The translations under genes and the position numbers were made by a program. From Cryomorphaceae bacterium (GTDB lineage Bacteria > Bacteroidota > Bacteroidia > Flavobacteriales > ECT2AJA-044): a stretch of DNA of 64,000 nucleotides. Numbering within the stretch: the stretch's first letter is position 1; each line of letters opens with the position of its first letter. Shown here piece after piece: positions 42,264 through 48,344 of the stretch. The DNA lies in assembly GCA_017798125.1 (NCBI GenBank), contig CP059070.1:434001-498000 (forward strand). The letters are read 5' to 3'. The notes beneath the pieces were generated by a model. It was not told the origin of the DNA. It was given only the letters and a program-made list of their open reading frames with translations, and made no database searches.

Positions 42264-42291
42264 AAAAAAAAGCCGTGAACGAATTCACGGC
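42264..42291 (-). terminator. Rho-independent terminator of the universal stress gene
   Basis: On the minus strand, GCCGTGAA-TTCG-TTCACGGC (42272-42291) is a perfect 8-bp stem followed by eight T residues (42264-42271). It ends transcription 24 bases after the stop of the gene at 42316. Confidence 0.85.
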
Positions 42292-43173: not shown

Positions 43174-43767
43174 TTAGTCCACATAGCCTGCAACAATCTC
43201 TTTCACCTGTTCTAGGTGCTGTTGCTTGAGTGGTTCTCTGTGGGCACGAGAATAGTCCGTATGATAGTGGTGTACGGATAAGAATTGGACCTGTAGATGA
43301 TTCCATTCTCGTTCGTCTTGGACAATTCCAAGGCTTTTGAATTCAGAAAACAGACGGTTTCCGGTAACGAAGAAGTCCGAGCGTCCAAGATAATCTAGAT
43401 CCGCGTCGCAAAGGAGTCGTCCGAGCAAGTCCGTAGGCGACTGAGGTACACGGGTGACCATGATTAGCTCTATTATTCGCTGGATTTGCTCAGGCCCATA
43501 CCCGAACTGTGGCAAAAGTTCTCGAGCAATCTGTGCACTGGCCTCTTCGTGTCCTTTATAGGTGCGAACGAACCCAATGTCGTGAAGCAGCGCGGCTGTC
43601 CCCAGAAGCTCTCGATCCTCTTCACTAACCTTGCTATGTCCGGCCAATTCCATACAGACCTGGTACACATCAAGTGTATGATCCAAGCTATGATAACTCA
43701 GATGCTCTGGGAGATGTTCCTCGAGGTACAGGAGAATGGCCTCCTTTGCTTTTTTAAATTCCGCCAT
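43174..43767 (-). CDS. HD-domain phosphohydrolase, PDE-like metal site
   Basis: A 197-residue cytoplasmic HD-superfamily protein. The metal site is YHSLDHTLDV (H26, H30, D33), then ALLHDIGF (H62, D63) and a late aspartate in CDADLDYLG (D121/D123). The first motif closely resembles the YHNxxHxxDV box of class I cyclic-nucleotide phosphodiesterases. It lies 63 bases after an adenylate cyclase gene on the same strand, so cAMP hydrolysis is an attractive but unproved role. Other HD proteins of this size hydrolyse nucleotides or are uncharacterised. Confidence 0.85.
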   Translation of the reverse strand: MAEFKKAKEAILLYLEEHLPEHLSYHSLDHTLDVYQVCMELAGHSKVSEEDRELLGTAALLHDIGFVRTYKGHEEASAQIARELLPQFGYGPEQIQRIIELIMVTRVPQSPTDLLGRLLCDADLDYLGRSDFFVTGNRLFSEFKSLGIVQDEREWNHLQVQFLSVHHYHTDYSRAHREPLKQQHLEQVKEIVAGYVD

Positions 43768-43830
43768 AGACTAATGCGCTAAGATCGATTGATCCCCCAG
43801 GATACATCTGCAATCATGTTGCATTTACTT

Positions 43831-45747
43831 TCACTCTTGTTCACTTCTTTCGATGTAGTACATATGCATCGAACCCTTGTTCTTGACCTGAAGCGAACCT
43901 CGAGGTTCAAAATACAAGGTCTCCACATTTTTCACAAGTTCGTAAGTGCTTTGGGAGATATTAATCTTATCAGGCTCAGAATGTTGCTCCATTCGAGCCG
44001 CTGTATTTACCGTGTCCCCCCAAATGTCGTATTGGAACTTTTTGGTTCCGACAACACCAGCAACAACAGGACCGCTGGACAAGCCAATCCGTACGTCGAA
44101 ATAAGGCTCTTGGCGAGCCTGGTTATCGCGCCGTAGGCGCATCATAAATTCCCGCATTTTAAGCGACACTTCGACCATGATTTGGGCGTGTTTTTCCTCA
44201 CCGTGAGGGAGGCCGCAGACGCACATGTAGGCGTCGCCAATGGTCTTGATTTTCTCTATGGGGTAGTCGTCGATGATTTCGTCAAACCCGCGGAAACAGT
44301 GGTCAATCAAGTCGACCAGCCGCTGGGGTTCCAACTCTTCAGCGAGCTTGGTGAAGCCCACGAAATCGCTGAAAAGAACGGTTGTCTCAGGATAGAGATG
44401 GGCTCGGGCCCGGCCTTCGACTTTGAGCTCTTCCGCGGTTTCGGCCGGAAGAATGTTGAGCAGAAGAGCTTCAGATTTCTCCTGCTCCTCTTTGATCTCG
44501 CGAGTCCGCTCTCGAACGCGCATTTCGAGGATGGACTTTTGCTGGCTGAGGACATCGAGCCGTTTGGCACGCTCAAGGTTGAAACGATCGGCAAAACTGA
44601 GACTAAACAGAAAGATCTGAGAGGTAATTCCGGTGAAGAAGAAATTGAAATCCGTGGGAACGATGTCGAAGAAATCGAGGCCAAACAGGATCAAAAAGAC
44701 AAACATGACGATGAAACTCAACATCACAAAACGCATGTGCTTGACTCCGTTGAGGTAGATCTTCAAGGCCGCCAAGACCGCACAGAAGAACATGACCAAG
44801 GCCAAAAGAACGTTGATGTTTCGGGTGGTTTCTTCATAGTCTGGATTGAAAAGCCAAAGCACGAAGTTGATGACAAAAATGGATAGAAGGCCCAAGATTA
44901 CCTGTCGTATTCTGGGATGCCGTTCCCTCAAATTCATGTAGTTCATGGTGAAGGCACCAAAGCTGACCAATAGGGTTAAGGTCAAAAGTCGGTTCAAGAT
45001 GGACCCGAGACTATGGCTTTCTTCAACCGTGGCAAAAAGGACATCCGTCTGAAAAAAGTTGATACAGAGAACGGTCGCCGCCAATACATAGATGAGGAAG
45101 TAGGCATTTGAACTCGACCGAGTAACCAAGAGAAAAAAGAAGTTGTACAAAAGGAACGTCACCAGGATACCGAAAAAGGCGTAAAACGAGTTCTGTTGCC
45201 CCGCGATCAAATCGATCATTTCGTAGGATCGCGAACTGTATCTTCCTCCAATCTCATTGTAGCCAGATTCAGCATCGTAGGTCACCGAAAACAAAAGAAA
45301 CTGTGCTTTGTCGGGTAGCCCTTTGAGTTGAAAAACTTGAACGTCTCCTGTGGTTGCGCCCTTTCTTCTGGACTGGAGCCGAACGGAGCTCGGGCCTGTA
45401 TATTCCAAGATACGGCTGGTAGAACCCCTGTAATACAGATGGGCTTTGGACCCGTTGAAAGTGATGTAGGGTTCAACACCTTCAGAAGGTTCATATTTCA
45501 GGAACATCCAATAGGTTCCGACCAGGGGTCGCTCAAAATTGAAATCAGTGAGTGGCTTAAAACTCGTGCGTTCTCGAAGCCAAACCCAGCGGACATCGCG
45601 TTCTCCCGTGGTATCCTTCCAGACGACTAAATAATCGTCCAACGGGATCTCTCGCCCTGAATCCTCCAGTTCTGAGGATTTGAGAATGGGTTGGGCATTG
45701 AGTACCCCTGATAGGAGGAAGAAAAGTGCGAAGAATAGTCTATTCAT
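43831..45747 (-). CDS. Seven-helix membrane adenylate cyclase (7TMR-DISM + class III)
   Basis: A 638-residue protein with a signal peptide (residues 1-18), an extracytoplasmic beta domain of the 7TMR-DISMED type (20-180), seven membrane helices (~187-385), a short coiled coil, and a class III cyclase domain (~445-635). Metal aspartates are D461 (LFSDFVGFT) and D505 (KTIGDAY). K501 and D574 (QYDIWGD) are the adenine-selecting pair, and N581/R585 are the transition-state residues, so adenylate rather than guanylate cyclase is predicted. ATG 45747 begins the signal peptide and overlaps the hybrid kinase stop by 8 bases. An exact palindrome copy lies at 44125. Confidence 0.92.
   Translation of the reverse strand: MNRLFFALFFLLSGVLNAQPILKSSELEDSGREIPLDDYLVVWKDTTGERDVRWVWLRERTSFKPLTDFNFERPLVGTYWMFLKYEPSEGVEPYITFNGSKAHLYYRGSTSRILEYTGPSSVRLQSRRKGATTGDVQVFQLKGLPDKAQFLLFSVTYDAESGYNEIGGRYSSRSYEMIDLIAGQQNSFYAFFGILVTFLLYNFFFLLVTRSSSNAYFLIYVLAATVLCINFFQTDVLFATVEESHSLGSILNRLLTLTLLVSFGAFTMNYMNLRERHPRIRQVILGLLSIFVINFVLWLFNPDYEETTRNINVLLALVMFFCAVLAALKIYLNGVKHMRFVMLSFIVMFVFLILFGLDFFDIVPTDFNFFFTGITSQIFLFSLSFADRFNLERAKRLDVLSQQKSILEMRVRERTREIKEEQEKSEALLLNILPAETAEELKVEGRARAHLYPETTVLFSDFVGFTKLAEELEPQRLVDLIDHCFRGFDEIIDDYPIEKIKTIGDAYMCVCGLPHGEEKHAQIMVEVSLKMREFMMRLRRDNQARQEPYFDVRIGLSSGPVVAGVVGTKKFQYDIWGDTVNTAARMEQHSEPDKINISQSTYELVKNVETLYFEPRGSLQVKNKGSMHMYYIERSEQE
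44125..44141 (-). repeat. Dispersed palindrome, exact copy D (in adenylate cyclase)
   Basis: The 17-mer on the minus strand, sense to the gene, encoding MRLRRDN in a loop of the catalytic domain. Confidence 0.85.
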
Positions 45748-47344
45748 TCGCGGACTCTTTTTGTACCTCAGTTGGCGTTTTCCCACACCATTCACTGAAG
45801 CACTTACTGAAGTAGGCTGGGCTGCTAAATCCAAGCTCGTAGGCCACCTCGCTGACGGGTTTATCCACATCCCGAAGCAGTTCCATCGATTTGGACAGCT
45901 TGTAGTTTCGAACGTAAATACTGGTGCTGAGTCCTGTCAGGGCCTTTATTTTTCGGTGGACTTGAGTGCGGCTCATAAAGAGCTCTTGACTCAATTCTTC
46001 TACGCCAAACTCGCTTTCGTCTAGGTGTGCATCGACCACCTGCTGGATGCGCAATAGGAAGCTCTCCGCTTTCGTGAGCGGTCGCTCTTCTTCTTGCTTC
46101 TGATGCTCAATGACCTTGCGCAAGTGCTTGTACATCTTGTCGCGCAGGTCCATCATGCTTCGGCAGACGCTCTTTAATTCGTCTTCATTGAAGGGCTTTG
46201 TCAAATAAGCTTGAGCACCTTCTTCCCAACCTTGTTGTCGGTCTTCATCGGCCCGGCGGGCCGTCAGAAAAATTATAGGCACGTGGTTGATGACCTCCTC
46301 TTCCCGAATCAAGCGAAGCATTTCGAAACCATCCATCTCGGGCATATTGACATCGCTGACAATCAAGTCCGGAACTTGTTCTATGGCCATTTGAAGTCCT
46401 TCCTGACCGTTTCGCGCCGAAATAACTTCGTATTCCGCTTCGAGAAGGCTTCGCACGAACTCGCGCATTTCATTGTTGTCCTCCACGACCAGGACAAGAG
46501 GAGCTTCTTGATCCTTGGTTTTGGGGTCTACGATGGGGTATACATCGGACCGCAACTTGGGTTGGGCGTTGGCTGACTCGGACACTTCATCGAGTTGAGG
46601 AGGAAGAACGACCCAATCTTCGGGTAAGTCTCCTTCGCGCCGTAAGGCGGAAAACTTCACAGTAAAAGTGGTGCCTTGAAACTTCACGCTGGAAACGTCA
46701 ATGGTTCCGCCCATCATTTCGACCAGTTCCTTGACCAGAGACAAGCCGATACCCGTTCCTTGGTACAAACGGACATGGGTTTCTTCTTGGTAAAAACGAT
46801 CGAATACGTGGGGAAGCTTACTCTCCACAATGCCAATTCCGGTATCGCTCACTTGAAGCTCCACCTCATTACCGTGATCGTGCAGACGGACAAAAACGCT
46901 GCCGCCCCCGTCGGTAAACTTGATAGCGTTAGAGATCAAGTTGTAGAGCACTTTTTGCCATTTACGATGGTCAAAAAAGAGAAGCAGGTCATCCTCTGGC
47001 CCCTCCCACTGAAGCGATAATTGCTTCTCTTCAGCGATGGGTTGAAAAGAGAGGAAAAGTCCGTGCATGAACCGGGCGAAATCGGCGTTCGAGGCCTCTA
47101 CGGCAACGTCTTCATTTTCTATTTTACTGATGTCGAGTAATTCATCGATCAGCCTTTGAAGCTGGAGCGCGTTTCGCTGAACAAGTAACAAGCGCTGACG
47201 TGTATGTGCGTCCAACTCCGTACGCAAAAGTTGTTCTACAGGCCCTAGAATGAGGGTCAGTGGTGTTCTAAACTCATGCGTGATGTTGGAGAAAAACTTG
47301 TCTTTGATCTTTTCTAGATCCTCTTCCCTTGGTTCTTGACCCAT
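45740..47344 (-). CDS. Sensorless histidine kinase / receiver / AraC hybrid
   Basis: A 534-residue soluble protein carrying a whole two-component system in one chain: HisKA with H23 (SNITHEFRTPLTLILGP), HATPase near residues 125-235 (NLISNAIKFT, DTGIGI, GTGIGLSLVKEL), a receiver at ~282-400 with phosphoacceptor D331 (LIVSDVNMPEMDGFEML), and an AraC-type helix-turn-helix at ~430-534. It is the cytoplasmic half of a Bacteroidota hybrid two-component system without any input domain; the start lies only 22 residues before the phosphorylated His. It is coupled to the cyclase gene by an 8-base overlap. The input is presumably supplied by another protein. Confidence 0.93.
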   Translation of the reverse strand: MGQEPREEDLEKIKDKFFSNITHEFRTPLTLILGPVEQLLRTELDAHTRQRLLLVQRNALQLQRLIDELLDISKIENEDVAVEASNADFARFMHGLFLSFQPIAEEKQLSLQWEGPEDDLLLFFDHRKWQKVLYNLISNAIKFTDGGGSVFVRLHDHGNEVELQVSDTGIGIVESKLPHVFDRFYQEETHVRLYQGTGIGLSLVKELVEMMGGTIDVSSVKFQGTTFTVKFSALRREGDLPEDWVVLPPQLDEVSESANAQPKLRSDVYPIVDPKTKDQEAPLVLVVEDNNEMREFVRSLLEAEYEVISARNGQEGLQMAIEQVPDLIVSDVNMPEMDGFEMLRLIREEEVINHVPIIFLTARRADEDRQQGWEEGAQAYLTKPFNEDELKSVCRSMMDLRDKMYKHLRKVIEHQKQEEERPLTKAESFLLRIQQVVDAHLDESEFGVEELSQELFMSRTQVHRKIKALTGLSTSIYVRNYKLSKSMELLRDVDKPVSEVAYELGFSSPAYFSKCFSEWCGKTPTEVQKESANE

Positions 47345-47357
47345 GAAAACGAAGATA

Positions 47358-48344
47358 TCAAATTCCTGAGGTCGACCATGCAGAAATCAACGCGGTAATC
47401 AAGAGCGTAATCGCCAGGACATTTCCCCAGAAAGGTTTTCGAAAGTAGTAGAACAGGTTGGCCAGAACCAGTGATACAGGAAGGCCCAAAATGGCAAAGT
47501 GGGAAAGTTCATTCGCCGGGGCCAGAACAAAACCGACAAGGGCGGCTACCGTGGCCCAGAGCATCAGGAGGAAATTTTTCCGGTTGCTCACTCTTTTTTT
47601 ACTCAGGTGAAGCGCTAGTTCTACACCTCCCGTTACGGCTAAAATCAGCACGACGATCATCAGGGGAAGACGAGATCGAGACAGAGTCAAATCAATAGCC
47701 CCTTGCTGAAAGGCGCTCCAGTAGTTGATGTAATTGAACTCCATTAAGTCCGGATACCAAACCCAAAAAGAGTAAGCGATGAAGGCCGGTGCCACATAAC
47801 CGATTAGGATGACTGAGATATGTCGCCAATCGGTATGTCCATTGATCAAAATGGCAATGAACAGCAAGGGGAAAAAAGTTACGGAAGGCGCGTACATCAA
47901 GGTTGCCAAAGACAGGAAAATACTCGCGTTAAATGCAATCATCAAGCTCCCTTCATCAAAATACAGGCGAAAAAGCTCACGCATGGTCAAGGCTAAAAAC
48001 GGAAGTGCCCAAATGGCCGGTGAGGAAGCTAAAACTTCAGGAATAGCGGCGGCGAGGAACACGCCAAAAAACAAGGCAAAGTTGTTTTTGACCTTAAACA
48101 TGTCCTGACGATTCACGGCATTACTGAAAACGACACAGGCCCAAAATAACATGACCGCGGTCAGCACCCTGAAGATGATGGCCGAACCGCCCAACAATTC
48201 ATAAAGAAGGCCGAATAGGGGCATCCCGCCACTGGAGTGGACTTGATCTGGAGACCACCAGCCCGGTAACCAAAGAAGCAAGAAGATCAACAAAATCATG
48301 ACCGCCGAAGCGGGCTTCTGATTTCTGAAGACGTTGATCAACAT
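47358..48344 (-). CDS. DUF6427 membrane protein
   Basis: A 328-residue polytopic membrane protein with nine or ten hydrophobic segments and very short loops. The N-terminus MLINVFRNQKPASAVMILLIFLLLWLP, the loop PGWWSPDQVHSSGGMPLF and its place beside purD fit DUF6427, which is widespread in Bacteroidota. The function is unknown. It lies 13 bases upstream of the hybrid kinase on the same strand and may be transcribed with it. It diverges from the 54-residue membrane protein across 45 bases. Confidence 0.8.
   Translation of the reverse strand: MLINVFRNQKPASAVMILLIFLLLWLPGWWSPDQVHSSGGMPLFGLLYELLGGSAIIFRVLTAVMLFWACVVFSNAVNRQDMFKVKNNFALFFGVFLAAAIPEVLASSPAIWALPFLALTMRELFRLYFDEGSLMIAFNASIFLSLATLMYAPSVTFFPLLFIAILINGHTDWRHISVILIGYVAPAFIAYSFWVWYPDLMEFNYINYWSAFQQGAIDLTLSRSRLPLMIVVLILAVTGGVELALHLSKKRVSNRKNFLLMLWATVAALVGFVLAPANELSHFAILGLPVSLVLANLFYYFRKPFWGNVLAITLLITALISAWSTSGI

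Follow-up and report, generated by a model that had tools for sequence, protein, structure and literature searches.

Do a sensorless hybrid kinase, a membrane-bound class III cyclase and a small HD-domain protein, encoded side by side in a Cryomorphaceae bacterium, form one system that makes, removes and responds to cAMP under a single external signal? This was the original prediction for the locus, made from a 64,000-nucleotide stretch of DNA (here called the window). Three same-strand genes, the first two overlapping by 8 bases, were indeed present, and open reading frames and Pfam agreed on each of them (Table 1). The genes and domains of the operon score far above cut-offs, and chance is excluded. 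The length of the cyclase is counted from the ATG within the overlap. Two further parts of the unit, absent from the cluster as first described, were found downstream: a usp gene that starts 33 bases beyond the HD gene and, directly behind it, a hairpin with a perfect 8-bp stem and an 8-T tail. Since this strong terminator-like hairpin lies just behind usp, the transcription unit likely ends after usp, and we infer that the operon genes, including usp, are co-transcribed. The setting is chromosomal, between purine-synthesis genes.

Table 1 Features of the operon and its borders (positions are those of the window)
Feature	Coordinates	Strand	Basis and remarks
DUF6427 membrane protein	47358..48344	-	PF19992, E 2.3e-11; 13 bases upstream of hybrid
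Hybrid HisKA-HATPase-receiver-AraC HTH protein, sensorless, soluble, 534 aa	45740..47344	-	Pfam; genus-specific neighbour
Overlap of hybrid end and cyclase start, 8 bases	45740..45747	-	ORF positions
7TMR-DISM class III cyclase with adenylate-type residues, 638 aa	43831..45747	-	Pfam and residues
HD-domain protein, 197 aa, candidate cyclic-mononucleotide phosphodiesterase	43174..43767	-	Pfam HD, E 4.7e-13
Tandem Usp protein, 274 aa	42316..43140	-	Pfam; recurrent neighbour of HD family
Terminator-like hairpin closing the unit 3' of usp	42272..42291	-	Sequence match only

The cyclase gene product was predicted to combine a 7TMR-DISM sensor with a class III cyclase of the adenylate type (K501/D574), and domains and residues agreed with this. 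The 7TMR-DISM_7TM region (PF07695) was matched at E 1.3e-21 (77.9 bits against a cut-off of 29) and the Guanylate_cyc domain at E 1.4e-56 (191 bits against 21.9). All catalytic residues are present: the metal ligands D461 and D505, the adenine-selecting K501 and D574, and the transition-state residues N581 and R585. Judged by these residues, the cyclase is of the adenylate type, and its product in the window is likely cAMP. The protein thus resembles 7TMR-DISM receptors with class III cyclase output in its PF07695 7TM region, its cyclase domain and its complete set of catalytic residues. It differs from them at the N terminus, where a signal-like segment and then an extracytoplasmic stretch of ~170 aa, with no Pfam DISMED match up to E 0.1, precede the 7TM region.

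Genomic neighbourhoods of HD relatives were compared in two samples. One comprised 80 HD relatives from named genomes with 8-kb flanks; for the other, 297 genomes were drawn evenly from the Bacteroidota and examined for the HD family and for PF00211 cyclases, with 60 HD loci taken at ±5 kb. Flanks were annotated with purpose-built domain models, and clustering of all neighbours was confounded by fusion proteins. In the 297-genome sample, a cyclase lay within 2.5 kb of the closest HD family, or was fused to it, at 10 of 20 loci, while half of the close HD loci had no cyclase within 2.5 kb. In the 80-locus set, a cyclase was equally near or fused at 33 of the loci. Adjacency would be expected at about 0.005 per locus (binomial P ~8e-19 for 10/20), an expectation based on ~0.6 cyclase per Mb, itself an estimate from the 297-genome counts with a mean genome of 4.6 Mb assumed. 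PF00211 cyclases were present in every genome with the close HD family (18/18) and in 134 of the 279 others (Fisher 3e-6). A comparison within the same class gave 15/15 with the close HD family versus 7/22 (2e-5). Since related genomes are not independent of one another, these P values serve as guides.

Single-chain fusions of cyclase and HD were also found (L073/L098, L134/L171, L140 and L205). They fall in at least three separate branches of the HD tree, and one of them, L134, has the order Reg_prop sensor-cyclase-HD. L113 and L143 repeat the cyclase-HD-Usp order seen in the window, and HD and Usp adjoin in several further loci. Recurrent neighbours of HD also include cNMP-binding proteins, among them transporter-like HEAT proteins, whose phosphate cassettes are intact and canonical (e.g., FGELALLDxEPRS). 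Neighbourhood, fusions and co-occurrence agree with the predicted functional pairing, and the HD protein is very probably a partner of class III cyclases. Genome context of this kind shows partnership, not reaction.

The place of the hybrid is different. It carries HisKA, HATPase_c, Response_reg and HTH_18 domains, with intact H-box, N, G1 and G2 boxes and receiver aspartate. No transmembrane segment was predicted and no sensor precedes HisKA, so the original description of a kinase with no input domain is correct; hybrid two-component system (HTCS) proteins, by contrast, have an extracytoplasmic sensor in the same chain. The conserved order across Bacteroidota by which the prediction was to be checked was found for the cyclase-HD pair but not for the three genes with the hybrid. 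Outside the genus, 140 HD-centred and 40 cyclase-centred loci contained no sensorless hybrid next to a cyclase on the same strand. The nearest case was a full-length 958-aa AraC hybrid convergent to a cyclase in locus L254. Since the hybrid-cyclase pair was seen only in the genus, the hybrid was ruled out as a conserved module component beyond it. DUF6427, suggested earlier as a possible cluster member, was absent from all 80 HD loci of the first sample and was likewise ruled out as a component.

The order DUF6427-hybrid-cyclase-HD-Usp, between purD and purQ, is kept in a sister genome, the one other genus member compared, where DUF6427 again lies beside purD. In that genome (L212:9276-12795; G014:C8), the hybrid gene contains two frame changes and the cyclase gene two in-frame stops; the HD, Usp, DUF6427, PurD and PurQ genes are all open. 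Either the hybrid and cyclase genes were lost recently or the breaks are assembly errors; the genome is in 140 contigs. Between the window and the sister genome, pN was 0.10-0.27 in all genes, with hybrid and cyclase constrained about like purD. So few amino-acid-changing differences indicate that constraint acted on both over most of their divergence; synonymous sites are saturated, which makes dN/dS unusable and leaves the low pN as the sole statement.

These results bear on whether the hybrid borrows the 7TMR-DISM sensor of the cyclase, so that one signal would lead to both cAMP and AraC-type transcription. The 8-base overlap, the missing sensor, the order kept in the sister genome and the breakage there of both genes amid intact neighbours, as if they had been lost together, would fit such an arrangement. 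Two-component operons with receiver-cyclase fusions also recur beside HD. We nevertheless consider a borrowed sensor quite improbable: overlaps are common in operons, the hybrid has no recognisable docking domain, and no pair of this kind was found in the loci elsewhere. With the same-strand pair seen only in the genus and its two genes disrupted in the sister genome, control of the hybrid through the cyclase membrane protein, as first proposed, is unsupported. By flank domain annotation, HK-RR-(receiver-cyclase) operons are repeated partners of HD; two-component control of a nearby cyclase is therefore recurrent, in an architecture unlike that of the window hybrid.

The phosphodiesterase assignment had been based on the HD site, whose YHSLDHTLDV box was said to resemble cyclic nucleotide phosphodiesterases. 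The assignment remains plausible. The motif lends it little weight, however, since an H-x3-H box aligns at the same place in YpgQ-type HD hydrolases, and the box was rejected as sufficient proof. The HD superfamily assignment itself is clear: the protein, which consists of one HD domain, has the H...HD...D metal site and an all-helical predicted fold (AF2 model, pLDDT 97.6, all helices). With class I phosphodiesterases (PDEase_I, PF00233; PDE4 and PDE5) it shares the HD fold and the Y-H-x3-H ... HD ... D ligand pattern, and the family gives weak Pfam and PDB matches to them. PDEase_I was weakly matched by 11 of 50 family members (best E 0.0023), below the Pfam cut-off, and the window protein had no such match among those listed even at E 10. 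Class I enzymes are also longer (~330 aa, compared with 197 aa). Annotation does not readily show how Bacteroidota dispose of cAMP: about half of the 297 genomes have class III cyclases, and no protein in any of them passed the PF00233 cut-off. Three of the five best sub-threshold matches to this model were, by coordinates, members of the HD family.

Foldseek with the HD model placed small HD hydrolases first (2pq7 and YpgQ with ADP) and class I phosphodiesterases next, and sequence profiles echoed this picture. An enzyme in the cyclase pathway with another substrate, such as a nucleotide pyrophosphohydrolase or a nucleotidase that cleaves ATP, AMP or another nucleotide, must therefore be weighed. 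The best structural matches are 2pq7 and a Bacillus YpgQ structure solved with ADP; 2pq7 and B. subtilis YpgQ (5dqv/5dqw) are also among the best PDB sequence matches, and they have the H-x3-H box and HD core in common with the window protein. GppA/Ppx-type HD matches were commoner in the family than phosphodiesterase matches (23 versus 11 of 50 members). Identity to the small hydrolases is, however, ~20-26%, the genome context bears no trace of their substrate class, and Q159, Y126 and E142 are invariant residues peculiar to the family. A YfbR-like nucleotidase was matched by 1 of 50 members. Cyclic-nucleotide turnover accounts best for the fusion of HD to cyclases and for its place beside cyclases and cNMP receptors, and we regard another substrate as unlikely. 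Hydrolysis of the product of the cyclase by the HD protein is, on this sequence and context evidence, the probable reaction. A small alarmone hydrolase was rejected as a precedent for cAMP hydrolysis by an HD protein: alarmones and NADPH are the substrates given in the abstract (PMC9765508), and no cAMP hydrolysis was found there.

Two clades were resolved in a tree of 142 HD domains. The cyclase-linked clade (103 domains) includes the window protein; the other (39) includes both fusions of HD to PycTM and stand-alone HD proteins. Every one of the 142 domains keeps the core metal site and has H26, H30, H62, D63, E74, T105, D121, D123 and E142. All members of the cyclase-linked clade (103/103) have Q159 and F162; at the Q159 position the other clade mostly has N, T or S. 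Likewise, Y126 is present in 103/103 of the former and is mostly H in the latter, and D125 and R177 also differ between the clades. In sequence, the Q-x2-F spacing of Q159 and F162 equals that of the glutamine/phenylalanine base clamp of phosphodiesterases. The natural reading of these differences would be that the two clades are alike in chemistry and differ in substrate.

The fusions to PycTM bring in Pycsar, with its PycC cyclase and PycTM effector, which shares class III cyclase chemistry with the operon. If the operon were a phage defence of this type, the cyclase would produce a cyclic pyrimidine that acts on a PycTM effector, and HD would limit it. Members of the sister HD clade are fused to PycTM, and in L197 and L198 a cyclase (with a TolB-like part), PycTM and HD are separate adjoining genes; the window cyclase has a weak PycC match, and its own genome encodes a PycTM protein whose HD-like part is degenerate. 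Against this, K501/D574 are residues of the purine, adenylate type, no PycTM or other effector gene lies in the operon, the chromosomal setting is between purine-synthesis genes, and the window HD protein belongs to the other clade, with different pocket-type residues. In addition, members of the HD family are very rare in phages, plasmids and viral contigs. We consider a defence role very improbable.

The wider claim concerns the family. The cyclase-linked HD proteins may be an unnamed family of bacterial cyclic-mononucleotide phosphodiesterases, structurally near class I enzymes and paired or fused with class III cyclases throughout Bacteroidota, with a sister clade (Q159 replaced by N, T or S) joined to PycTM effectors and turning over or sensing a different cyclic nucleotide. 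This is put forward tentatively, at a little less than even confidence. The family looks like an uncharacterised bacterial relative of phosphodiesterases, and as a cyclase partner it seems to be undescribed, its parts being of known kinds. A targeted literature search, with subscription journals mostly outside its coverage, found no description of an HD-type cyclic-nucleotide phosphodiesterase of Bacteroidota.

At its core, the operon would then encode two enzymes, one to make a cyclic mononucleotide and one to remove it. Through its 7TMR-DISM part, the membrane cyclase would sense a signal from outside the cytoplasm and make cAMP, and the HD protein, as a metal-dependent phosphodiesterase, would hydrolyse the product and so end or shape the signal. 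The genome encodes three class III cyclases and a single intact copy of the HD protein, which would serve the window cyclase and probably also the other two. CRP/FNR-type cNMP-binding proteins elsewhere in the genome may be the receivers; ten cNMP-binding domains were found, including a CRP-like protein with an FGEMALL...RRS cassette. The Usp protein, probably encoded on the same transcript, may bind nucleotide. It resembles the cAMP-binding Usp proteins Rv1636/MSMEG_3811 (PMC11107214) in placing a Usp fold beside cAMP enzymes and differs from them in being tandem. The hybrid kinase with AraC output would be a lineage-specific addition, probably co-expressed, any contact with the cyclase being hypothetical. 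No class II phosphodiesterase was found in the genome, and its seven metallophosphatases could include a CpdA-like phosphodiesterase. As a small, soluble group that tracks with cyclases and in places shares a chain with them, the HD family offers a concrete candidate, simple to assay, for the missing off-switch. If it proved active, it would be a minimal bacterial relative of human phosphodiesterase drug targets (targets of drugs such as sildenafil), and its activity would help to explain the HD domain of many PycTM proteins.

Several further observations were made in the same genome and samples. One of the cyclases of the genome is a 1707-aa protein (L213:6289-11412) with, by eye, protein-kinase-like, AAA/TPR-like and GAF-like parts. 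The PycTM protein of the same genome (487 aa, L217:1426-2889, near C1:1354729-1355052, minus strand) is encoded ~0.88 Mb from the operon. By eye, its N terminus is HD-like and lacks the metal ligands, with YHN kept and HD changed to YN; this part is perhaps a binding rather than a cleaving domain. HD-PycTM fusions of ~400-450 aa are common (L016, L017, L024, L201-L204, L206-L209 and L211). Several genomes with a long-frame HD family member had no PF00211 cyclase at E 1e-10.

A mobile or defence-island origin is not supported, given one weak phage match, four plasmid records and one viral contig. The phage match, in Salicola phage SCTP-2 (MF360958.1:111507-112037; 25.6% identity, E 7e-7), is to a distant HD relative, possibly a counter-signalling enzyme.

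Among the HD loci, proteins of 900-1180 aa with transporter-like, HEAT and cNMP-binding parts repeatedly adjoin HD (L071, L078, L095, L115, L117, L132 and L192). HD is fused to a YitT/DUF2179 membrane protein in L085, L128, L155 and L166, and HD-YitT adjacency is very common beside cyclases. Chains of 860-910 aa combine TIR-like, TolB-like, TPR and HD parts (L089, L100, L123, L127, L139, L160 and L164); HD occupies in them the usual place of the cyclase domain of such TPR proteins, and several adjoin an opposite-strand cyclase. Tandem arrays of 3-5 class III cyclase genes with no HD nearby were seen in L252 (G007:C24:199000-216000), L228, L230, L231, L232 and L262.
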